Shown here piece after piece: positions 5,688 through 43,981 of a stretch of 64,000 nt of DNA. The notes beneath the pieces were generated by a model, which was not told the origin of the DNA, ran no database searches, and worked only from the letters and a program-made list of their open reading frames with translations. Position 1 is the stretch's first letter, and each line of letters starts with the position of its first letter. The DNA comes from Roseovarius mucosus (GTDB lineage Bacteria > Pseudomonadota > Alphaproteobacteria > Rhodobacterales > Rhodobacteraceae): NCBI RefSeq assembly GCF_002080415.1, contig NZ_CP020474.1, forward strand, positions 1 through 64,000, in the 5' to 3' direction. The position numbers and the translations under genes were made by a program.

Positions 5688-6749
5688 TTAGCCGCGGCGG
5701 CGGCTGCGGCTTCCGGCGCGGCCACCGGCGCGGACTTCTTCGCCGGGTTTGGGGGGGGCTTTGTTGAACTTGATCCAGTTGCCGCCATGCGGATCGGCGT
5801 TCATCAGGAAGTTGGCGGCCATGATCGCCTCCATCTCCTTGCCCGGACGCGCCTTGGTGGAGCCGAGACCAAAGAGTTGGCAGAAGGTCTCGTCATCCAT
5901 GTCATCGGGCAGGATCAGGCCAGAGGCGGCGACTTCGGCCTTTTTCGCCTCGATCTCGGATTGTTTCACCGGCAGGGCAATCGGGTTCATGATCGCAGAG
6001 GTCATGCCCGACTGCATCGCCATGGGCAGAAAGGCGTTGTTGATGCCGTGACGGTTGGGCAGGCCAAAGGAGATGTTCGACGCGCCACAGGTGGTGTTGA
6101 CGCCCAATTCCTCTCGCAGGCGGCGCACAAGGGTAAAGACCTGACGGCCAGCGGTGGCCATTGCGCCCACGGGCATCACCAGCGGATCGACGACGATGTC
6201 ATAGGCGGGAATGCCGAAATCGGCGGCGCGTTCGACGATTTTCTTGGCGACGGCAAAGCGCACATCGGGGTCTTCGGAAATGCCGGTGTCGTCGTTCGAG
6301 ATGGCCACGACCGGCACATTGTATTTCTTGACCAGCGGCAGGACGTATTCGAGACGGTCTTCTTCGCCTGTCACCGAATTGAGGAGCGGCCGGCCATGGG
6401 CGGCCATAAGACCGGCCTCGAGGGCGGCGGGCACGGATGAGTCGATGCAGAGGGGCAGGTCAACGAGGCCCTGAACCAGCTCGATCATCTTGGTCATGAG
6501 GGGCGGTTCGGTCTCGTTGGGGTTGGGGTTGGAGTTGTAGACCACACCTGCGTTGATATCGAGCACGGTGGCCCCGGCTGCGGCCTGTGCCAGCGCATCG
6601 GATTCGACGGTGGAGAAATCGCCCGCCTCAAGTTCGGCGGCGAGTTTCTTGCGGCCCGTGGGGTTGATGCGTTCGCCAATGACGCAGAAGGGCTCGTCAA
6701 AGCCGATGACGGCGGTTTTGGTTTTGCTCTCGACGATGGTGCGGGTCAT
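5688..6749 (-). CDS. Methyltetrahydrofolate:corrinoid methyltransferase, pterin-binding part of split methionine synthase
   Basis: This 353-residue protein is a pterin-binding-domain protein like AcsE or the second MetH module. Early motifs are GERINPTG (about 25-32), DINAG and DSS, the usual folate-contacting positions of the TIM barrel. It lacks corrinoid, homocysteine and reactivation domains, so it must act with separate proteins. The corrinoid protein at 49402 and homocysteine methyltransferase at 51640 are the expected partners in the three-part cobalamin methionine synthase of Rhodobacterales. The C-terminus ends in a basic, glycine-rich SRSRRRG tail. It is immediately downstream of a methylene-THF reductase gene on the same strand, separated by 9 bases. 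Confidence 0.85.
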   Translation of the reverse strand: MTRTIVESKTKTAVIGFDEPFCVIGERINPTGRKKLAAELEAGDFSTVESDALAQAAAGATVLDINAGVVYNSNPNPNETEPPLMTKMIELVQGLVDLPLCIDSSVPAALEAGLMAAHGRPLLNSVTGEEDRLEYVLPLVKKYNVPVVAISNDDTGISEDPDVRFAVAKKIVERAADFGIPAYDIVVDPLVMPVGAMATAGRQVFTLVRRLREELGVNTTCGASNISFGLPNRHGINNAFLPMAMQSGMTSAIMNPIALPVKQSEIEAKKAEVAASGLILPDDMDDETFCQLFGLGSTKARPGKEMEAIMAANFLMNADPHGGNWIKFNKAPPKPGEEVRAGGRAGSRSRRRG

Positions 6750-6758
6750 GGTTTGGTC

Positions 6759-7685
6759 TTATCCTTGCTGGTTGGCGGGCGTGGCGGAGGCCCCGCCGTT
6801 GTCGATGGCCCATTCGGCATTGGCCTTGATCCCGCCAAGCGGGAAGAAATGCACATGCTCGATGTTGAAATCGGGGTTGGCGGCCTTGTGGGCGGCGAGT
6901 TCGGTCAAAACCTCGGTCGGCTCATAGGGCAGGAGCAGTTTCGAGACATCCATGGCGCGTTTCTGCAGAACCTTGAGCGAGGGGCCGACACCGCAGGCGA
7001 TGGCGAATTTGATCAGGGTTTGCAGCTTGGCGGGGCCAGCGATGCCAATATGGATGGGCAGGTCGATGCCCGCGGCCTTGAGGTTGTCGGCCCATGCGAT
7101 GATCGGCTTGGCCTCGAAGGCGAATTGGGTGGCGAGCGCCATTTTGGCGTCGGTGGTTTCCGAGAATTTCTGTTTCCAGCGAAGGGCATCCTCGACATTC
7201 TTCATGCTGCCGTCTGGGTCGATATCTTTGTTGCCTTCGGGGTGGCCAGCGACATGCAGGCGCTTGAAGCCTGCGCGGTCGAATTCACCGGATTCCATGA
7301 GCTGCATGGAGCTGTCGAAATCGCCATGCGGGGTGGTGACACCACCGGCGAGCAGCAGTGCTTGGTCGACGCCTGCCTCGCCCTGGTAGCGGGCGATCCA
7401 ATCGGCGAGGGTGGCGCGGTCCTTGATGATGCGGGCCGGGAAGTGCGGCATCACGGGATAGCCATCGGTGGCCAGACGCTTGGCGGTGGCGACCATATCC
7501 TCGATCGGGGTGCCTTCGATATGGGCGATGTAGACGCGGGTGCCTGCGGGCAGAAGGTCGCGGAAATTCTCGACCTTTTCGGCGGTGCGCGGCATCACCT
7601 CGATGGAATAGCCCTCAAGGAAAGCCTCGAGCTGACCATTGGCGGGGGTGAACTTCTCACGCTTCTTGAAATTGAACAGAGCCAT
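6759..7685 (-). CDS. metF: Methylenetetrahydrofolate reductase (MetF-like)
   Basis: The enzyme (308 residues) should reduce 5,10-methylene-THF to 5-methyl-THF, feeding the adjacent pterin methyltransferase and hence methionine synthesis. The protein reads as a TIM-barrel MTHFR family member, with early Glu in the YSIEVMPRT strand and the AHIEGT strand. The start at 7685 follows a clear GGGAGG ribosome-binding site; an in-frame upstream ATG at 7715 has none. The operon order on the minus strand is PF13769 protein, metF, methyltransferase. This supplies methyl groups from C1 units that the methylated-amine island can release as formaldehyde. Confidence 0.8.
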   Translation of the reverse strand: MALFNFKKREKFTPANGQLEAFLEGYSIEVMPRTAEKVENFRDLLPAGTRVYIAHIEGTPIEDMVATAKRLATDGYPVMPHFPARIIKDRATLADWIARYQGEAGVDQALLLAGGVTTPHGDFDSSMQLMESGEFDRAGFKRLHVAGHPEGNKDIDPDGSMKNVEDALRWKQKFSETTDAKMALATQFAFEAKPIIAWADNLKAAGIDLPIHIGIAGPAKLQTLIKFAIACGVGPSLKVLQKRAMDVSKLLLPYEPTEVLTELAAHKAANPDFNIEHVHFFPLGGIKANAEWAIDNGGASATPANQQG

Positions 7686-18502: not shown

Positions 18503-19840
18503 TCAGTTCTGGAGGTAAACTTCGAGGCTGTCGTCGAGCGCGTCTTTCCACGGCGTGTGGTGCAGGGGGGCCATGGTGCCGGTGATGACCGATTTATAGG
18601 AATTGTTGCGGAAGCCCATGATGTCTTTCTTCTTGTGGCCCTTCCATTCCTTGAAGGCCTGACAGGCGCCTTCGACGTCAAAGCTGGGATAATCGGTTTC
18701 GTCGATCAGTTCCTTGACGTAATCGCCCTGATACCAGATCGCGTCATAGTCATCCTGTCCGGCGTCCTCGCGGGCGACACGGTCGGCAACATCCGCCTCC
18801 ATCGCCGCTTGGTCGGGAATGGCGATGCGGCCCATGATTGCGTCACGCACCCACCATGCCTGCGCGTCGAACATGTTGAAGGTGAACCACTGGTCCTGCA
18901 TGCCGAGGTAAAAGAGCGCGGGTTCGCGCACAAAGGCCACGCCCTTGTAAAGATCGGCGGTGGCAAGGCGGTTGGCGGTCTTGAGGCGCAGATCGTCGGG
19001 CAGGAAGGGGAAATGGTGTTTGTAGCCGGTGCACAGGATCACGGCATCCACATCCTTGGTGGTGCCATCCTTGAAATAGGCGGTGTTGCCCTCGACCTTT
19101 TGCAGGAGCGGCACCTCTTGCCAGTTGTCCGGCCATTTGAAGCCCATGGGGGCGGTGCGGTGGCTGACGGTCACGGATTTGCAGCCGTATTTCCAGCATT
19201 GCGAGCCGATGTCTTCGGCGGAATAGCTGGTGCCGACGATGAGAATGTCCTTGTCCTTGAATTCCAGCGCATCGCGGAAGTCGTGGGCGTGCAGGACGCG
19301 GCCTTTGAAATTCTCGAAGCCGGGGAAATAGGGCACGTTGGGCGTGCTGAAATGGCCCGAACAGACGATCACGTGATCGAAGGTTTCGGTATAGGTGCGA
19401 TCCTCGGGGAGATGGCAAACGGTGACGTTGAATTTCTCGCCGTCTTTCTCGACCCAGCGGACGGCGGTGGAAAAGCGGATGAGGTCGCGCACACCGGCCT
19501 TGAGCACGCGGCCTTCGATATAGTCGAAGAGCACGGCGCGGGGCGGGTAAGAGGCGATTTGCTTGCCGAAATGTTCCTCAAAGGAATAGTCAGCGAATTC
19601 AAGGCCTTCTTTGGGGCCGTTCGACCAAAGGTAGCGATACATCGAGCCATGAACCGGCTCGCCATATTGATCAAGGCCGGTGCGCCAGGTGTAGTTCCAG
19701 AGGCCGCCCCAGTTATCCTGCTTTTCAAAGCAGACGATTTCGGGGATCTCTGCGCCTTTGGCGGCGGCGGATTGGAAGGCCCGCAATTGGGCCAGGCCCG
19801 ATGGTCCTGCGCCGATGATTGCAATTCGTTTTTTGGTCAT
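18503..19840 (-). CDS. tmm: Trimethylamine monooxygenase
   Basis: The enzyme (445 residues) is a flavin-containing monooxygenase that oxidises trimethylamine to TMAO using NADPH and O2. The FAD motif GAGPSG is at 10-15, the FMO signature FxGxxxHxxxF at 178-188 and the NADPH motif GTSYSAE at 203-209. The sequence reads as the marine bacterial Tmm family throughout. The start at 19840 is set by a strong GGAGG site 5 bases upstream; a longer frame starts at 19867. It is divergent from an AmiC-like binding-protein gene, with candidate operator palindromes in the shared intergenic region. Confidence 0.95.
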
Positions 19841-19853
19841 GTTGCCCTCCAAG

Positions 19854-19882
19854 CTGGTATGGACCAATATTCAGGTATTGGT
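19854..19882. promoter_or_regulatory. Candidate GntR operators upstream of tmm
   Basis: Two overlapping symmetric sites lie 14-42 bases before the tmm start: CTGGT-N4-ACCAA (19854-19867) and ACCAATA-N6-TATTGGT (19863-19882). Related TTGGT-N5-ACCAA symmetry occurs before the binding-protein gene at 22448. FCD-type GntR regulators often use TGGT...ACCA half-sites, and such a regulator is encoded at 21326. A position this close to the start favours repression. This is inference from symmetry only. Confidence 0.45.
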
Positions 19883-20002
19883 GCCTTTGGTTCATGCCAG
19901 ATTGAAGTTGTGGGGGCGGGCTTGTCAATAATTTTTCTTTCCAAGAATAATATTTTCCCATGAACCGCTGGCGCAATGCCGGGAACCTGCTAGAAATTGC
20001 TC

Positions 20003-21304
20003 ATGTCAAATTCGAGTTTTGCACAACGTCTGGCCATTCAGAGCGCGTTGCCCCGGTTTTCGGTGGGCATGCGCAAGACGCTGACCATCGGCTTTCTGGC
20101 CCCTTTGAGTGGTCCGGTCGAATCGTGGGGCCTGCCGGGATTGCAGGGCTGTCGGTTGTGGGTGGATTGGCTCAACCGGGCGGGGGGCGTGCTGATGGGG
20201 GGGCGGCGATTCCCGGTGCGGCTCGAATCCTATGATTGCGGATATGACGGGGCAGATGCGCTGACCGGGGCGCGGCAGCTGGTGCAGGAACATGATGCGG
20301 CGCTGGTGATGATGCTGGGGGGCGATTCGTTCACGGAGGTGCGCGATTACCTGATGGGGCAGAAGGTGCTGACCTCGTCCTTGCTGACCAGTGATCTGTC
20401 GCCGGACACGCCCTATCTGATTGCGCCGGGCGAATCGCTGCCGATTTACACGGTGACGGCGGTGGAATGGATCGCCAAGAACCGACCCGAGATCAAGACC
20501 GTGGCGCTCTGTGCGCAGACCGATGCGCTTGGGCTGCCGGCGCTGGCCGCCTATCGCGCGGCGTTCAAGGCGGTGGGCATCGAGATCATCGAGGAAATTC
20601 GGTATGATCCGGGCACGGCATCGGCCCCTGCGGTGGTGGCCCCGATGCTGGCGGCGGCACCCGATATGCTGTGCTGGTGTACAAGCTATACGCCGATGGT
20701 GCATGCGATGACGGAATATGCCTATCATCAGGGCTATGCGGGCCAAATCCTGAGCTGTACGGCGGATTGCTATGAGCAGTTGATCGCGCTTACCTCGCCC
20801 GAGTTCATGGAAGGCTTCTTGTTCCAGTTTCCCGATTTCGACGATCCGGCGCTGGCGGAAAAGGCGTTTTTCTTTAACCAGCCGCAGGCGTTTTATGACG
20901 AATACAACGCGCGGTTTCCGGGCAGTTGGACGGCGGTGAGTTGGGAATATGCCGCGATCCTTGATATCTGGCAATCGGCGGTCGAGCGGGCGGGAACGGT
21001 CAATTCAGTCTCGGTTCTGGCGGCGATGCGGCAATTGGGCGAGGTCAACCACGCCTTTGGCCCGGCGCAATGGTGGGGGCAGGATATGTTTGGCCTTGAT
21101 CATACGCTGATTGGCGATTGGCCGGTGGTGCAAATCCAAGGCGGCAAGGCGCGGATCGTTGGTTTCGGGTCAATCCCCGATTGGCTGGCGCGGCATGAGC
21201 CGTTGTTGCGGGCGGAAATGGCGGCCCTTGGCCAGCTTTGGCATCAGCGGCACGGGCAGGGGGCGGGCAAGGCCTGTCTTGAGGCGCGGCTGGTGGTGAG
21301 CTGA
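20003..21304 (+). CDS. Amide/urea-type binding protein without export signal (AmiC-like)
   Basis: The protein has 433 residues and is a clear paralogue of the Tat-exported binding protein at 22448: both share IGFLAPL near the N-terminus, an EFMEGF[L/I]FQFPDFDDPAL block and a WW[G/T]x[D/E][M/L]FG block. The N-terminus lacks a twin-arginine motif, a hydrophobic h-region and a lipobox. The family-like part starts almost at an internal Met (20069), so the product is predicted to be cytoplasmic. Cytoplasmic members of this family, such as Pseudomonas AmiC, sense amides and control gene expression. It is divergent from tmm and convergent with the GntR gene, which makes a ligand-sensing role plausible. 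Confidence 0.75.
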   Translation: MSNSSFAQRLAIQSALPRFSVGMRKTLTIGFLAPLSGPVESWGLPGLQGCRLWVDWLNRAGGVLMGGRRFPVRLESYDCGYDGADALTGARQLVQEHDAALVMMLGGDSFTEVRDYLMGQKVLTSSLLTSDLSPDTPYLIAPGESLPIYTVTAVEWIAKNRPEIKTVALCAQTDALGLPALAAYRAAFKAVGIEIIEEIRYDPGTASAPAVVAPMLAAAPDMLCWCTSYTPMVHAMTEYAYHQGYAGQILSCTADCYEQLIALTSPEFMEGFLFQFPDFDDPALAEKAFFFNQPQAFYDEYNARFPGSWTAVSWEYAAILDIWQSAVERAGTVNSVSVLAAMRQLGEVNHAFGPAQWWGQDMFGLDHTLIGDWPVVQIQGGKARIVGFGSIPDWLARHEPLLRAEMAALGQLWHQRHGQGAGKACLEARLVVS

Positions 21305-21325: not shown

Positions 21326-22048
21326 TTAGTCCTCTTGCAGCAGGGTCTTTTGTTCCTCGATCAGGTGCAGCTTGATATATTCTACGGCGGTTTCCACATC
21401 GCGCGAGGAAATCGCGTTGAAAAGCGCGTTATAGCGTTTCTGGTAATCCTCGATGCGTTTGGGCGTGAGATGCCGCCGCATCATGGTGGAGCGATGCGTT
21501 TGCAAACAGGCCTCGATCGCCAGATCATAGCAGGAGGCAAGCAGGGGATTGCCGGTGCCCGCCGCGATTTTGCGATAGAAATCCTCTTCGCAGGCGACGA
21601 ATTCGGCGGCGTCGGTGCTGATTGCCTCCATTCGGGTGAGGATGTCGTCGAGCTCCATGATGTCGCGCGGCGTCATGTTGATGACCGCAAGGCGGATCAT
21701 CTCGGGCTCTAGAATGCCGCGCACGACAAGGTGATCAAGCGGGCTGGTATTTTCGGCAAGCGCGCTGCGGCTGGGGGTGCGGGTGAGTTCGCTTTTGTAC
21801 GTGACAAAGCTGCCCGATCCGGCACGGCGGCGGATGATGTTGCGCGCCTCAAGCACATCGAGCGCATCGCGCACGGTGTTGCGGGCCACGCCCAATTCGG
21901 ACGAGAGCGTACGTTCTGACGGCAGGCGCGCGCCCTCGGGATACTCCTCGGATTTGATGCGGGCAAAGAGGCTGTCGATCACCACCTGCACGGTGGCCCC
22001 GACCGAATGGCTGGTGACAAGCTGGGCTGTGGTGCTCTGGTTGGCCAT
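21326..22048 (-). CDS. GntR-family (FadR/FCD-type) transcriptional regulator
   Basis: The protein has 240 residues. An N-terminal winged helix-turn-helix covers about 20-85, with the GARLPSERTLSSELGVARNTVR recognition region, and an all-helical FCD ligand-binding domain follows (about 95-225). It lies between the AmiC-like gene and the transporter operon. A perfect GGAACCGGTTCC palindrome sits 52-63 bases upstream of its start. The position suggests that it controls tmm, the transporter operon and itself in response to a small acid or amine-derived ligand; the effector is unknown. Confidence 0.88.
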   Translation of the reverse strand: MANQSTTAQLVTSHSVGATVQVVIDSLFARIKSEEYPEGARLPSERTLSSELGVARNTVRDALDVLEARNIIRRRAGSGSFVTYKSELTRTPSRSALAENTSPLDHLVVRGILEPEMIRLAVINMTPRDIMELDDILTRMEAISTDAAEFVACEEDFYRKIAAGTGNPLLASCYDLAIEACLQTHRSTMMRRHLTPKRIEDYQKRYNALFNAISSRDVETAVEYIKLHLIEEQKTLLQED

Positions 22049-22447: not shown

Positions 22448-23737
22448 ATGCTTTCCAAATATATCTCTAAGGGGTTCACACGTCGGACCTTTCTGAAAAC
22501 CTCCGCAGCGGCGACTGCCGCGCTTGGCCTGCCGAAAGTGGCGCTGGCGGCGGGTGAACCGATCAAGATCGGGTTTCTGGCCCCTTTGACGGGGGCTGTG
22601 GCGGCCTGGGGCAAGCCGGGCCTTGATGGCTGTATGATCTGGGCCGAGCGGGTCAATGCCGCGGGCGGAATCACGCTGACGGATGGGGCGCATCCGGTTG
22701 AATTCGTGGCCTATGACGAGGAATACGATCCCGCCAAGGCGCGCACCGGGGCAACCAAGCTGATCCGTGAGGATGGCGTGAGCTTTATCATGATGCTGGG
22801 CGGCGATCCTTGGCCCGGTGTGCAGCCGGTGGCAGAGCGCACGGGGATGCTCTTTTCGACGTTGCTGCCGTCGGATCTCTCGCCCGATACCAAGACACTG
22901 TTGGCCCCGGCCGAGGTGCATCCCATCTATAATGTGACGGGTGTCGAGTGGCTGGCGCAGAACAAGCCGGAATTGAAGACGGCGGTGATGTGCGCGCAGG
23001 ATGACGCGCTTGGCCTGCCGTCGGTGGCCACCTATCTTGCGGCCTTTGAGGCGGCAGGGATCGAGATGCTGGATGAGCCGTTGCTGTTTGATCCGGCCAC
23101 CACGGATTTTGCACCGGTGGTGACGCGGTTGATGGCCAAGAACCCCGATATCATCTGTCTCGACACGTGCTATTCGGATTATGTGCATCCCATCGCAGAG
23201 CAACTGTTCCAGCAGAATTTCAAGGGTCAGATCATCAGCTGTACGGCTGATTTCTATGACCAGATGATCGCCAAGACATCCAAGGAATTCATGGAAGGGT
23301 TCATTTTCCAGTTCCCCGATTTTGACGATCCGGCGCTGAATGCCGAGAGCGTGAATTTCCAGGACCCCAACGGATTTTATGCCGAGTACAACAAGCGGCA
23401 TCCCGGTCAGTGGGGCGCGGTAAGCTGGGAATATGCCTCGATCATGGATCTGTGGAAGGTCGCGGCGGAAAAGGCAGGCTCTGCCGATCCCGAGGCGGTG
23501 CTGGCGGCAATGAAAGACGGCCCCGGCAACCACGCCTTTGGCGAGGCGGAATGGTGGGGCACCGAGCTTTTTGGTATCGACAATGCGCTGGTCGGCGATT
23601 GGCCGGTGGTGGCGATTGAAAACGGCAAGGCCGTGATCAAGGAATTCCGCTCGATCCCCGACTGGTATAGCCGCCATGGCGATCTTTTGATCAAGCATAT
23701 GCAGGCCTATGGCCAGATGTGGGATCAGCGCGGCTGA
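22448..23737 (+). CDS. Tat-exported ABC-transporter substrate-binding protein (amide/urea/branched-chain amino acid type)
   Basis: The protein has 429 residues. The N-terminus carries a Tat signal with RRTFLK at 12-17, a hydrophobic Ala-rich segment and a cleavage region near residues 33-36. The mature part begins with the IKIGFLAPLTG strand of type I periplasmic binding proteins. Start choice: GGAGGA precedes the ATG at 22448; a longer frame from 22298 lacks signal-peptide character. It heads an operon with two permease and two ATPase genes. The family includes AmiC, FmdD, UrtA and LivK, so the ligand may be an amide, urea-like or amino-acid-like compound. Its place beside tmm suggests a methylated nitrogen compound. 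Confidence 0.88.
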   Translation: MLSKYISKGFTRRTFLKTSAAATAALGLPKVALAAGEPIKIGFLAPLTGAVAAWGKPGLDGCMIWAERVNAAGGITLTDGAHPVEFVAYDEEYDPAKARTGATKLIREDGVSFIMMLGGDPWPGVQPVAERTGMLFSTLLPSDLSPDTKTLLAPAEVHPIYNVTGVEWLAQNKPELKTAVMCAQDDALGLPSVATYLAAFEAAGIEMLDEPLLFDPATTDFAPVVTRLMAKNPDIICLDTCYSDYVHPIAEQLFQQNFKGQIISCTADFYDQMIAKTSKEFMEGFIFQFPDFDDPALNAESVNFQDPNGFYAEYNKRHPGQWGAVSWEYASIMDLWKVAAEKAGSADPEAVLAAMKDGPGNHAFGEAEWWGTELFGIDNALVGDWPVVAIENGKAVIKEFRSIPDWYSRHGDLLIKHMQAYGQMWDQRG

Positions 23738-23805: not shown

Positions 23806-24675
23806 ATGATGGAACTCCTGGCGCAGACCGGCCTGAACGCCGTCTATGCAGCAAGCTATATTTCTTTGGTGGCCGTTGGCCTTGTGCTGATTTTTGGCGT
23901 GATGGGCGTGATCAATTTCGCCCATGGCGAGTTGTTCATGGCCGGGGCCTATGCGGTGGTGGCGCTTTATGCCGATATGCATCTGCCGTTCTTTGTGGCT
24001 GTGCCCATTGGCATGATCTTTGTGGGCATGCTGGGGCTGGTGATGGAGCGCGGGCTGTTTCGACCGCTCAAGGGCAATCCGCTGGGCGGTCTGGTGGCCT
24101 CGATCGGGTTTCTGATGATCCTGCAATCGCTGGCGGTGATGGGGTTTGGCGTGCGGATGGAACATATTCCGCCCGTGACACAAGAGGTCTGGCGCATCTC
24201 TGACAAGGTGGGGCTGCCGGTGGCGCGCATCTATGTGATCGTGGCGGCGGTTGTTCTGTTGAGCGCGCTGTGGTATTTCCTCAAGCGGACGCGGTTTGGC
24301 TGGGCGCTGCGCGCCTCGGCACAAGACCCGGAGGCGGCGGCGTTGCAGGGGATTTCGATCACGCAAACCGCGCGGATCGCCATGTTCATTGGTGCGGCCT
24401 TGGCAGGGGTGGCGGGCGCGCTGACGGCTCCGCTGGTTTCGGTCAACCCGCATATGGGCCATTCGGTGATTGTCACGGCCTTTATCGTCATCATCGTGGG
24501 CGGGGTCGGGTCGCTGGAGGGGGCAATCATCGCCTCGGTGGTCTATGCCTTTGTGCATACGTTCGTCACCACATTCTCGGATGGGGTGGTGGCCGATATC
24601 GTGGGTCTGTCGCTTATGCTGGTGGTGCTGATCGTCAAGCCTACGGGCCTATTCGGGAGTGCGGATCGTGCTTAA
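23806..24675 (+). CDS. LivH-type ABC transporter permease
   Basis: This is a 289-residue polytopic inner-membrane protein with about eight hydrophobic segments and the GVMGVINFAHGELFMAGAY motif of LivH/UrtB permeases near residues 27-45. It forms the membrane channel with the LivM-like protein downstream, whose GTG start overlaps its 3' end. It follows the binding-protein gene by 68 bases, probably within one transcript. Confidence 0.88.
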   Translation: MMELLAQTGLNAVYAASYISLVAVGLVLIFGVMGVINFAHGELFMAGAYAVVALYADMHLPFFVAVPIGMIFVGMLGLVMERGLFRPLKGNPLGGLVASIGFLMILQSLAVMGFGVRMEHIPPVTQEVWRISDKVGLPVARIYVIVAAVVLLSALWYFLKRTRFGWALRASAQDPEAAALQGISITQTARIAMFIGAALAGVAGALTAPLVSVNPHMGHSVIVTAFIVIIVGGVGSLEGAIIASVVYAFVHTFVTTFSDGVVADIVGLSLMLVVLIVKPTGLFGSADRA

Positions 24676-25645
24676 GCCGCTGATGTTCCTTTTTGGTGCT
24701 GCCGCGCTGATCGCGCTGCCGCATGGCCTGAGTTTCTCGCAACAGGAAATTCTTGTCTTTCTGGTGATCAATATCCTCTTGGTCATGTCCTACCGGTTGC
24801 TCACGCTGACTGGCGAATGGTCGCTGGGGCATGTGGTGATCATGGGGGTGGGGGCCTATGCCTCGGCTCTCATGACCAAGAACCTTGGCGTGCCGGTGCC
24901 GGTGGGCATGATCCTTGGCGGGGTTACGGCGGCGCTTTTGGCGGTGCTCTTATCCTTTCCGCTGTTCCGGATGAAGGGGTTTTATTTCCTGATCGGGTCC
25001 TTCGCGGCGGGCGAGATCATCCGCCTGATCTGGAAGCGGTTTCGCGAACCCTTCGGCGGTGCCCGTGGCATTTCGGGGATTGATCCGATGCCGGATTTCT
25101 CGCTTGGGTTTTACAGTTTCGATTTCTTCGAGCCGGTGTCTTATTACTACTTTGCCGGGACGATTGTTGCTGTCTGCCTCTGGGTGCTGTGGCGGATCGA
25201 GAAATCACCCGTGGGCCTGACCTTTCACGCGGTGCATTGGCAGGACAAGCTGGCGCAGGCGTCGGGGGTGAACCTGCGGGCCTATCGCACGCTGGCCTTT
25301 GCCATCGCCTCGGGTTTTGCCGGGATCGCGGGGGCGCTTCAGGCGCATTACGTGGGCACGGTGAACCCCAATTCCTTTGACATCGAAGTGATGGTGTTTG
25401 TGCTGACCTGGGCCATCGTGGGGGGGACGACAACGTTTTACGGCCCCATTCTGGGCTGTGTCCTGCTGACGGTGATCAATGAGGTCGTGCTGCGGGGGAT
25501 GGGGTTCGAACAGGCGCGGCCGCTGTTTTACGGGGCGATCATGATCCTGTCGATCCTGTTTCTTCCCAATGGGTTGGAGAGCATTGTTCAGAAAATCCTG
25601 CCGCGCAAAGCCACGGCGAAACCCGATAGAAAGGCCGCAGCATGA
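24659..25645 (+). CDS. LivM-type ABC transporter permease
   Basis: This 328-residue permease has roughly ten membrane segments and the EWSLGHVVIMGVGAYASAL motif typical of LivM/UrtC proteins. The proposed GTG start at 24659 overlaps the LivH-like stop; a second GTG at 24668 is equally possible. The C-terminal cytoplasmic tail is basic. The gene overlaps the downstream ATPase gene by 4 bases. Confidence 0.87.
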   Translation: MRIVLKPLMFLFGAAALIALPHGLSFSQQEILVFLVINILLVMSYRLLTLTGEWSLGHVVIMGVGAYASALMTKNLGVPVPVGMILGGVTAALLAVLLSFPLFRMKGFYFLIGSFAAGEIIRLIWKRFREPFGGARGISGIDPMPDFSLGFYSFDFFEPVSYYYFAGTIVAVCLWVLWRIEKSPVGLTFHAVHWQDKLAQASGVNLRAYRTLAFAIASGFAGIAGALQAHYVGTVNPNSFDIEVMVFVLTWAIVGGTTTFYGPILGCVLLTVINEVVLRGMGFEQARPLFYGAIMILSILFLPNGLESIVQKILPRKATAKPDRKAAA

Positions 25646-26409
25646 CCGATTTTCTAGAAATGCGCGGCCTGACCATGCGCTTTGGCGGCTTGATGGCGGT
25701 GGATGGGCTGTCGTTCAAAGTGGCACATGGCAGTATCCATGGGCTGATCGGGCCGAATGGCGCGGGCAAAACCACCACGTTCAACATGATCTCGGGGTTC
25801 TATACGCCGACGTCTGGTCAAATCCTGCTCAGGGGCGAGGATATTTCCGGCCTTTCGATGCATGAGGTGGCGCGGCGCGGTGTTGTGCGGACATTCCAGC
25901 ACTCGACGCTTTTTGCCGAGTTGACGGTGTTGGAAAACGCGCTGGTGGGCACGCATATGCCGTTCCGGCCCAATATCTTTGCCGCGATCATCGGCTGGGA
26001 CCGCGAGGATCGGCGTGGGGCAGAGGCGCGGGCGCGCGAGGCGCTTGAGTTCTTTGGTTTGGGCGATCTGGCCGAGGAGCGGGCCGGGGATCTGTCGCAT
26101 GGGCATCAGCGCGCTTTGGGGCTGGCGGTGGCCTATGCCAGCCATCCCGATGTGATGCTGCTGGATGAGCCATTCACCGGCATGAACCCCGAGGAGACGC
26201 GGCAGATGATGGAGCTGATGCGCCGCCTCAAGGCGGATGGGATCACGATCCTTTTGGTGGAGCATGACATGCAGGCGATCATGGGGCTGTGTGATACCAT
26301 CACCTGCATGAGTTTCGGCAAGTTTCTGGCCGAAGGGGGGCCGGCGGATATCCGGCATCATCCGGCGGTGATCGAGGCCTATCTGGGAGGCGCGCGCCAT
26401 GTTGCTTGA
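25642..26409 (+). CDS. LivG-type ABC transporter ATPase
   Basis: The protein has 255 residues with Walker A GPNGAGKT at 37-44 and Walker B MLLDEP near 170. The C-terminal extension is characteristic of LivG. The signature motif reads LSHGHQRAL, whose SHGHQ core differs from the usual LSGGQ but is seen in LivG/UrtD-type ATPases. It pairs with the LivF-like ATPase whose gene overlaps by 11 bases. Confidence 0.9.
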   Translation: MTDFLEMRGLTMRFGGLMAVDGLSFKVAHGSIHGLIGPNGAGKTTTFNMISGFYTPTSGQILLRGEDISGLSMHEVARRGVVRTFQHSTLFAELTVLENALVGTHMPFRPNIFAAIIGWDREDRRGAEARAREALEFFGLGDLAEERAGDLSHGHQRALGLAVAYASHPDVMLLDEPFTGMNPEETRQMMELMRRLKADGITILLVEHDMQAIMGLCDTITCMSFGKFLAEGGPADIRHHPAVIEAYLGGARHVA

Positions 26410-27106
26410 GATGCGCAAGATCGCCGTCAACTATGGCAAGATCAACGCGATCCGCGATATTTCCATTGCCGTGCCCGAGGGCAAGATCGTGACCATCATC
26501 GGTGGCAATGGCGCGGGCAAGACCACGACGCTGCGCGCCATGTCGGGGATGATCCCGATTGTGGCGGGGGAAATCCTGTTTGAGGGGACGCGGATTGATC
26601 ATCTGCCCGCGCATAAGGTGGTGGCGCATGGCATCGCGCATGTGCCCGAAGGGCGGCGTATCTTCAAGGATATGACGGTTGAGGAAAATCTGCGTACCGG
26701 CGCGTTTCTGCGGCGCGACAAGCCCGAGATCGAGCGCGATTTGGAGCAGGTCTATGACCGTTTCCCGCGCCTGCGGGAACGGCGGGTGCAGCGGGCGCAG
26801 ACCATGTCGGGTGGCGAGCAGCAGATGTTGGCGATTGGCCGCGCGCTGATGTCAAAGCCGCGTTTGTTGCTGATGGATGAGCCGTCGATGGGGCTTGCCC
26901 CGGTGATCGTCGAGGAAATCGCGCGGATCATCGAAGAGATCAACGCGCAGGGGCTGTCGGTGGTGCTGGTGGAGCAGAATGCCGAACTGGCGTTGGAACT
27001 GGCGCATCATGCCTATGTGTTGGAAACCGGAAACACCGCAATGGAGGGGCCTGCCCATGAGCTTCGTGGAAATGAACATGTTCGCGCCGCGTACCTGGGG
27101 CTTTGA
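26399..27106 (+). CDS. LivF-type ABC transporter ATPase
   Basis: The protein has 235 residues with Walker A GGNGAGKT near 37-44, signature MSGGEQQML near 137-145, and a Walker B motif LLMDEPSMGLAP typical of LivF/UrtE. Together with the other three transporter proteins and the exported binding protein it completes a HAAT-family importer. Its 3' end overlaps the next gene by 50 bases. Confidence 0.9.
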   Translation: MLLEMRKIAVNYGKINAIRDISIAVPEGKIVTIIGGNGAGKTTTLRAMSGMIPIVAGEILFEGTRIDHLPAHKVVAHGIAHVPEGRRIFKDMTVEENLRTGAFLRRDKPEIERDLEQVYDRFPRLRERRVQRAQTMSGGEQQMLAIGRALMSKPRLLLMDEPSMGLAPVIVEEIARIIEEINAQGLSVVLVEQNAELALELAHHAYVLETGNTAMEGPAHELRGNEHVRAAYLGL

Positions 27107-42937: not shown

Positions 42938-42982
42938 ATGTTACGTAGAGGCAAAAGCGCTAAGGGCAAAAGGCCGACCGAG

Positions 42983-43981
42983 ATGACACAGCGCGTGATC
43001 CGAATAGGGTTCCTGATCTTTCCGGGGTTTCCGATGTCATGCCTGACCTCGGTGATCGAGCCGTTGCGCGCGGCCAATGAAATCTCGGGGCATCGCACAT
43101 TTGCCTGGGATTTGGTGGCCGAAGGCGCGGAGCGCGTCATGTCGAGCGCGGGCATCGGGTTTGAGCCCGGTCGGCGGCTGTCCGAGACCGACGATTGCGA
43201 TTATCTGCTGCTGCTGTCGGCCCCCACCAGCCGGTTTGCCGATGCACGCTCTGCGGCGCATCTGCGACGCTTGGCGCGGCATGGCACGGTGCTGGGGGCG
43301 ATCAGTGGGGGTGTCTTTCCGCTCTTGCGCAGCGGGGCGGTCGCGGATGTCGCGCTATCGGTGCATTGGTGCTACGAGGCGGCGTTTCTGGCGGAGTTTC
43401 CCGGCGTTCCGGCCTCGGATCAGGTGATCGAGATCACGCCACGCTGTGTCACCGCCTCAGGCGCGGCGGCGGCGTTTGATCTGGCGCTGCATATGGTCGA
43501 CACAGCGCTAGGGGCGGGCATTGCCACCGAAGTGGCCTGTTGGTTCCAGCATCCGATGATGCGCAAGGCGGGCGTGCAGCAAATGGTGCCGGTGCTGGGC
43601 GAGGGGGCGCGGGCCACCGATCTGCCGCCGATGGTGGCGCGGGCGATTGATCTGATGGCGCAGCATATGGCGGCCCCGCTGTCGATGGCGGAGGTGGCCG
43701 AAGATCTGGGCATCACCCCTCGGCATCTGGAGCGCAGTTTCAAGCGCGCGACAGGTCAGAACCCGACCAATTATTTCCGCGCCATGCGGATGAAGGCGGC
43801 GCGGCAGATCGTGATGTATTCCAACGACACCATGGCGCAGATCGCCGAGGCCGTGGGCTATGCCAGTTCCAAGGTGTTGGTGCGGCATTACCGGGATGCC
43901 TTTGGCATTTCACCGCGCGAGGATCGGCAGCGGATCAACCTGACGCGGGTCAAGGGCAATCTGCCGGTGCCCTCGGTCTGA
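42983..43981 (+). CDS. GlxA-type AraC-family regulator
   Basis: The protein has 332 residues. The N-terminal DJ-1/PfpI-like domain begins at the IGFLIFPGF strand and runs to about 170. The C-terminal AraC DNA-binding domain (about 215-315) has two helix-turn-helix motifs including ITPRHLERSFKRATGQNPTNYFR. Relatives control glycine betaine, carnitine and dimethylglycine catabolism. Its location at the end of the methylated-amine island makes dmm or amt genes likely targets. An alternative start at 42938 would add 15 residues. Confidence 0.85.
   Translation: MTQRVIRIGFLIFPGFPMSCLTSVIEPLRAANEISGHRTFAWDLVAEGAERVMSSAGIGFEPGRRLSETDDCDYLLLLSAPTSRFADARSAAHLRRLARHGTVLGAISGGVFPLLRSGAVADVALSVHWCYEAAFLAEFPGVPASDQVIEITPRCVTASGAAAAFDLALHMVDTALGAGIATEVACWFQHPMMRKAGVQQMVPVLGEGARATDLPPMVARAIDLMAQHMAAPLSMAEVAEDLGITPRHLERSFKRATGQNPTNYFRAMRMKAARQIVMYSNDTMAQIAEAVGYASSKVLVRHYRDAFGISPREDRQRINLTRVKGNLPVPSV

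Follow-up and report, generated by a model that had tools for sequence, protein, structure and literature searches.

We analysed the first 64,000 nucleotides of contig NZ_CP020474.1 of Roseovarius mucosus (hereafter the window), which hold a methylamine island made up, in order, of the trimethylamine (TMA) monooxygenase gene tmm on the reverse strand, a gene for a binding protein that we call BP1 on the forward strand, a gene for a GntR-type regulator with an FCD domain on the reverse strand, a second binding protein gene (BP2) with livHMGF-like genes on the forward strand, and tdm (Table 1). Divergent orientation is seen for tmm and BP1, and convergent orientation for BP1 and the regulator gene. 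Oxidation by Tmm is described as a main way in which TMA is used in the sea, and the regulator TmoR, of which the window encodes an orthologue, represses tmm in R. pomeroyi, where its DNA-binding domain binds the tmm promoter (PMC13390433). The subject of this analysis is BP1, which goes with TmoR rather than with Tmm in the genomes searched, even where the two genes are unlinked, and which we propose as a sensor for this repressor.

Table 1. Positions of the features around BP1 in the window
Feature	Position	Strand	Basis
tmm, trimethylamine monooxygenase, divergent from BP1	18503..19840	-	NF058570, 837 bits (cut-off 675)
Promoter region shared by the divergent tmm and BP1 genes, TTGGT/ACCAA half-sites as candidate TmoR operators	19841..20002		
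Half-site pair in the tmm/BP1 promoter, CTGGTATGGACCAA	19854..19867		
Half-site pair in the tmm/BP1 promoter, TTGGTTCATGCCAG	19887..19900		
BP1, Peripla_BP_6/HAAT binding protein without signal, proposed cytoplasmic sensor subunit	20003..21304	+	domain, identity, upstream stop, 80 orthologues
BP1 N-terminal tail, residues 1-23, conserved	20003..20071	+	conservation, low model confidence, similar tails in other signal-less relatives
GntR/FCD regulator, TmoR orthologue (tmm repressor in R. pomeroyi)	21326..22048	-	domains, gene order, degenerate FCD metal site
Candidate further TmoR operator upstream of BP2, TTGGTAATGAACCAA	22368..22382		
BP2, Tat-exported BP1 paralogue, binding protein of a Liv-type ABC transporter	22448..23737	+	
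LivH, LivM, LivG and LivF-like subunits of the BP2 transporter, outside the proposed sensor	23806..27106	+	

The BP1 open reading frame begins with an ATG and encodes 433 residues, of which residues 26-382 match Pfam Peripla_BP_6 (PF13458, E 2.5e-57). This is the sole Pfam family found in BP1, with no match to TAT_signal, and BP2 matches both Peripla_BP_6 and TAT_signal. The two proteins align over 402 positions at 52% identity (BLASTP E 4e-155) and share the long identical blocks, such as FQFPDFDDPAL, that an earlier note made from the sequence alone had pointed out. That note had placed the start of the family-like part almost at the first residue, which has to be corrected, as the domain begins at residue 26 and the preceding tail is itself conserved. 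It had also seen no export signal and had raised the possibility of one supplied by an alternative start. The sole other in-frame start is a TTG at 19997, and a TAG at 19991, 12 bases upstream of the ATG, closes the frame; therefore, no upstream start can add a signal, and a start or frame error hiding one is ruled out in the window.

To follow BP1 beyond the window, genome contigs were scanned with it, which confirmed 94 relatives, and the best 80 loci were retained. At the sequence level, a twin-arginine motif was found before the domain in none of the 80 BP1 orthologues but in all 28 linked BP2 proteins. The longest stretch before the domain free of R, K, D, E, H, N and Q measures 4-11 residues in the 80 BP1 proteins against 12-22 in the 28 BP2 proteins. 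These two features separate the types, which hydropathy does not, whether taken over the first 40 residues or over the part before the domain, where the values overlap (0.49-1.51 in BP1 against 1.08-2.11 in BP2). The aligned start is a methionine in 96% of the orthologues, and the frame stays open for more than three residues upstream of it in 61 of the 80, so that in these the start rests on conservation. Within the open upstream stretches no start codon precedes a twin-arginine signal, and the one RR found upstream of the aligned start, in L080, likewise has none before it. At the level of sequence, no recognisable export signal is thus present in BP1 or in its 80 orthologues, as the earlier note had it for the window, and BP1 is predicted to be cytoplasmic.

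The position of BP1 divergent from tmm and next to a GntR regulator holds well beyond the window, since tmm lies divergently within 600 bp of BP1 in 77 of the 80 loci and a convergent GntR gene lies within 600 bp in 73 (in 76 when the whole locus is considered). BP2 accompanies BP1 in 28 loci and was not found in the other 52, some of which are cut by contig ends. A strain of R. pomeroyi (L106) shows the same gene order, and its GntR/FCD protein is 61% identical to that of the window. Another locus (L054, 7929-12091) contains BP1, TmoR and BP2-Liv without tmm in place; the gene upstream of BP1 there is one that we take to be LepA-like, and the genome has a second TmoR-like gene. The arrangement is not new, contrary to what had been suggested from the window: loci with a single gene between tmm and tmoR are common, and this order has been published, what usually stands between tmoR and a neighbouring tmm being a "gene of unknown function" (PMC13390433). 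The TmoR-tmm system of R. pomeroyi DSS-3 (SPO1551 and SPO1553; PMC13390433) belongs to the same locus type, with TmoR as the tmm repressor. The gene left there as of "unknown function" corresponds here to a non-exported binding protein that follows TmoR, and its number between SPO1551 and SPO1553, together with L106, suggests that SPO1552 is the DSS-3 orthologue of BP1. One figure legend shows an uncharacterised HAAT periplasmic binding protein beside tmm and tmoR (PMC4744692) and another names a binding protein among recurring neighbours (PMC7574528); as far as these legends go, both proteins are likely to be BP1. The protein itself is uncharacterised, and no description of it as cytoplasmic was found in the literature searched, which did not cover the original description of TmoR.

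We then compared the distribution of BP1 with those of TmoR and Tmm. Among 149 genomes of the family, tmm is present in 34, BP1 in 11 and TmoR in the same 11, so that 11 of the 34 tmm genomes have both, 23 have neither and none has one alone. For this set, BP1 was counted if it aligned from query residue 1 or 2 and lay beside tmm; G123 (a diverged pair, no tmm match) and the proteins with Tat-like signals of G063, G073 and G118 were left out. The perfect 11-of-34 match would have a p of about 3.5e-9 if genomes were independent, which they are not. Among 60 relatives, tmm is present in 26, BP1 in 24 and TmoR in the same 24 (BP1 aligned from residue 1-3, always with tmm in the fetched locus; G051 left out as exported). 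The two sets combined give 59 tmm genomes, 34 with both, 25 with neither and none with one alone. At the level of the class (385 genomes), BP1 was found in two genomes (G000 and G341) and TmoR in the same two; the other 16 genomes matched by the BP1 query have an exported BP2 by reading, except for G345 (L141), whose start was unreadable, and a search with P0193 matched the same 18 genomes. The absences of TmoR are not exhaustive because a limited number of GntR candidates was scored per genome, at most 18 in the family search and at most four and seven in the class searches.

The association persists where the genes are apart. BP1 and TmoR lie 35 kb from each other in G014 and 11 kb in G098. 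In G027 they are found on separate contigs, with BP1 as deep as 65 kb within its own. Four loci without TmoR (L042, L048, L074 and L087) come from genomes that each have one elsewhere; L042 and L048 look, by their coordinates, like G014 and G027. This TmoR search covered six genomes and was positive in all six, the match being the locus copy for L054 and L106. Protein distances over 71 loci correlate at r 0.83 for BP1-TmoR, 0.37 for BP1-Tmm and 0.40 for TmoR-Tmm, and the partial correlations are 0.80 (bootstrap 0.76-0.84) for BP1-TmoR and 0.08 for BP1-Tmm. When BP2 was added (21 loci), BP1-TmoR, at 0.88, was the strongest of the six pairs.

FCD domains normally bind a metal through an aspartate and three histidines. 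TmoR of the window has the GntR and FCD domains of regulators such as NanR and LldR, with the aspartate and two of the histidines replaced. Of 77 TmoR rows aligned at the metal-site positions, 60 read E,Y,Y,H, 15 read E,Y,F,H, one reads E,M,Y,I and one is gapped at the first two places; the D,H,H,H tetrad occurs in none. The eight further FCD proteins of L111 and L150-L156, of which that of L155 does not adjoin BP1, have a glutamate at the first place, vary at the others and never show the full set. The controls, which are few, include two regulators from the same loci that have no BP1 partner, with D,H,H,H and N,H,H,H at these places. Of 18 PDB matches, the five shown retain, by eye, the aspartate and the first two histidines. 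Such a degenerate site fits a repressor that would leave sensing to a partner. TmoR was reportedly first described by Lidbury in 2016. Later work with its DNA-binding domain inferred its effectors from mutants, with dimethylamine (DMA) as the main one and trimethylamine N-oxide (TMAO) as a minor one (PMC13390433). The control of the whole island that had been imagined for the window finds no support in the published work on TmoR: its reported effect is on tmm, and in R. pomeroyi the transcripts of tdm and downstream genes are comparable without TmoR, these genes being controlled by the AraC-type TmaR (PMC13390433). Further along, the window has an ammonium transporter gene and, at 42938-43981, a gene for an AraC-type regulator that resembles GbdR with a score below the GbdR cut-off and may be the TmaR orthologue serving the remainder of the island.

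The region between tmm and BP1 is rich in TTGGT/ACCAA half-sites (24.4 per kb in 78 regions including the window, against 1.3-1.4 in coding regions). With near-copies removed, TGG-N6-CCA, which fits TTGGT-N4-ACCAA, occurs in 52 of 65 such regions, against 3.6 in shuffles, and TTGG-N6-CCAA in 33 of them; only one of 14 tmm promoters without BP1 and TmoR contains TGG-N6-CCA. Half-sites reach 9.2 per kb upstream of BP2 (26 regions) and 4.8 per kb upstream of tmoR, a weak enrichment. Their density alone is unspecific, since tmm promoters without BP1 and TmoR still have 10.9 per kb. These palindromic TTGGT sites are candidates for binding by TmoR. A regulon drawn from a genome-wide scan with TGGTNNNNACCA was rejected, as the sites are too frequent.

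The tail before the BP1 domain is strongly conserved, S5, F6 and P17 being present in all 81 sequences (the window and the 80 loci) and V21, G22 and M23 in 95-96%. In a single AlphaFold2 model of mean predicted local distance difference test score (pLDDT) 85.5, the pLDDT is below 50 at residues 1-5 and 7-23, and residues 6-15 are drawn as a helix. Two protein searches gave 1642 and 1804 relatives, of which the best 120 each were listed, some with starts that look truncated. By reading, two of these 240 have a true Tat signal and five more match the RR pattern elsewhere. Other signal-less relatives have tails similar to that of BP1, and some are annotated (precomputed) with PF13433 besides PF13458. 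In sequence the tail is like the final part of a Tat signal, and the full signals of P0212 and P0227 end in a similar way by eye. In a tree of 95 rows, 62 form one group (support 100/99). It is composed of 25 tmm-linked BP1 including that of the window, six close relatives without known context, two diverged BP1 (from L111 and L150) and 29 of the listed proteins. By reading, these 29 show no twin-arginine signal, but some have uncharged stretches of up to 20 residues, and another type of signal is possible in them. P0212 and P0227 lie just outside this group and 31 exported BP2 rows beyond them, with signals that were read directly (L113 has KR instead of RR). A single loss of the export signal in the BP1 group is the simplest reading, not proof, because the tree has no outgroup. 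We rejected a recent tandem duplication of BP2 within the locus as the origin of BP1, as the tree puts the two on either side of a well-supported branch. At 24 positions the residue is specific to the type (81 BP1 and 27 BP2 sequences), and seven of these positions fall within 225-239; therefore, the ligands or contacts of the two types may differ.

Diverged BP1 and FCD pairs also occur without nearby tmm. G123 (L111), which has no tmm match, encodes a signal-less relative 51% identical to BP1 beside a GntR/FCD gene (37% identical to TmoR) and a BP2-Liv set. On plasmid IV of P. aminovorans (L150, 9001-11033), a signal-less BP1 and an FCD gene are convergent with overlapping 3' ends and cluster with NCS1 symporter, racemase and hydantoinase genes, with no tmm within 19 kb. 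Plasmid searches with P0193 and P0190 matched the same 17 records, and eight were inspected: besides L150, L151-L154 and L156 have tmm, BP1 and FCD in order, L155 has its FCD gene beyond tdm, and Rhizobium L157 has an exported protein with a Liv set.

A non-exported sensor beside a GntR regulator, as first suggested from the window, is well supported as a hypothesis on these sequence comparisons, and the reading that we consider the probable one makes BP1 a protein of the cytoplasm that senses a ligand for the repressor TmoR, much as AmiC does for AmiR, with the tmm/BP1 promoter as the target. TmoR would sit on the TTGGT-N4-ACCAA-like palindromes between tmm and BP1 and repress both genes. Upon oxidation of a methylated amine, BP1 would close round a small compound of the pathway, most likely DMA or TMAO, and ligand-bound BP1 would engage or release TmoR, possibly via its conserved tail. 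Repression would be lifted, and tmm and BP1 would rise together. In this scheme we infer the binding of a ligand by BP1, its contact with TmoR, the sign of this contact (anti-repressor or co-repressor), the role of the tail and the repression of BP1 itself.

The precedent invoked in the earlier note stands at the level of the fold. AmiC is cytoplasmic, and AmiR is an ANTAR antiterminator. In this Pseudomonas aeruginosa system (AmiC PDB 1pea, 1qnl and 1qo0), a type-I binding-protein fold shared with BP1 serves as a regulator, and BP1 likewise appears to lack an export signal. The differences are that the partner of BP1 would be a GntR/FCD repressor, not an AmiR-type antiterminator, and that the identity to AmiC is about 15%; AmiC is not among the 10 PDB phmmer matches of BP1 at E 0.001. 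Relatives of the same fold take very small ligands, acetamide for AmiC and urea for UrtA, according to the structure titles. BP1 also shares its domain and fold with ABC binding proteins of the HAAT/LivK/UrtA type (PF13458), including BP2, and differs from them by the missing signal peptide, the conserved tail and the frequent lack of a detectable BP2 transporter. If BP1 is a sensor, many genomes contain a regulator gene under the label "ABC transporter substrate-binding protein", predictions of transport based on genes of this kind would need correcting, and it would be explained how the known repressor of tmm learns of the substrate. Repressors split in this way, into a DNA-binding part and a transport protein put to new use, could then be sought elsewhere.

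Several observations weigh against BP1 as the sensor of TmoR. AmiC takes place 19 in a list of 50 rows, amid exported binding proteins, which indicates fold likeness only. BP1-BP2 distances also correlate (0.73, 21 loci), neighbours sharing inheritance, so part of the BP1-TmoR correlation reflects shared locus history. In G197, not counted among the separated cases, BP1 ends 1.8 kb from the end of its contig and TmoR starts at base 454 of another, so that a break between contigs may account for their separation. The genome G031 has tmm with four half-sites yet no BP1 or TmoR match. As to the promoters, TGG-N6-CCA is present in just two of six plasmid promoters with BP1 and FCD. The repeat is common genome-wide (84 sites per strand against 38 for the reversed pattern). 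The window has 31 near-matches where 15.8 would be expected, a number that no shuffle out of 100 attained, and the majority lie well away from the tmm-BP1 locus. The repeat also occurs in 39 of 81 BP1 and 17 of 79 tmm coding regions, themselves about eight times longer. In G031 (L147), where tmm is at 5713-7053, the contig ends 1.4 kb on, which leaves a recent loss or an assembly gap.

The acid and two aromatics conserved at the old metal site of TmoR (E,Y,Y/F in 75 of 77 rows) could bind a small ammonium ion without BP1. TmoR might then sense DMA or TMAO alone in a remodelled pocket, and BP1, cytoplasmic and coregulated through the intergenic region that it shares with tmm, might have another job such as a cytosolic buffer or carrier of TMA, TMAO or DMA round Tmm. 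This is an unlikely reading. In its favour, the genetics names the two effectors and invokes no other protein (PMC13390433). However, BP1 follows TmoR and not Tmm, as seen in the 23 tmm genomes with neither and in the low partial BP1-Tmm correlation; diverged pairs exist without nearby tmm, and the partnered FCD domains of L111 and L150-L156 keep the aromatics unevenly. It is more doubtful that BP1 is a cytoplasmic sensor for something other than TmoR, such as TmaR, a nitrogen regulator or, from the inside, the ABC transporter, with TmoR just a coregulated neighbour. The AraC-type regulator and the ammonium transporter of the window would suit this, and contact of BP1 with TmoR is itself presumed, but the link between the two persists in G014, G027 and G098 and in the diverged pairs, and BP2 was not found in most BP1 loci, some of them on short contigs. 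That BP1 is still exported, by a signal that escaped recognition, and serves the Liv-type transporter is very improbable: its identity to BP2 with many positions conserved in both, the possible Tat remnant in the tail and the overlapping hydropathy would agree with it, but the twin-arginine motif is absent in all 80 orthologues, the uncharged runs are short and BP2 is so often not found.

The sensor reading of BP1 may extend, more tentatively, to its family. It is possible, though we would not favour it over the opposite, that the Tat signal was lost once, that its remnant was kept as a docking tail and that these proteins became detachable sensors for FCD-GntR repressors with decayed effector sites, TmoR-BP1 being one instance and the other pairs serving other substrates.

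At 1-1583 of L153 (Paracoccus alcaliphilus), about 6 kb from the tmm-BP1-FCD set, a binding protein gene is found beside an ANTAR-domain protein gene, AmiC/AmiR-like by annotation. In other alphaproteobacteria (L112, L113 and L131-L138), tmm has as its immediate divergent neighbour an operon of a Tat-exported BP2 and LivHMGF, without BP1 or TmoR, which suggests that the Liv-type BP2 transporter imports a compound of the TMA pathway.
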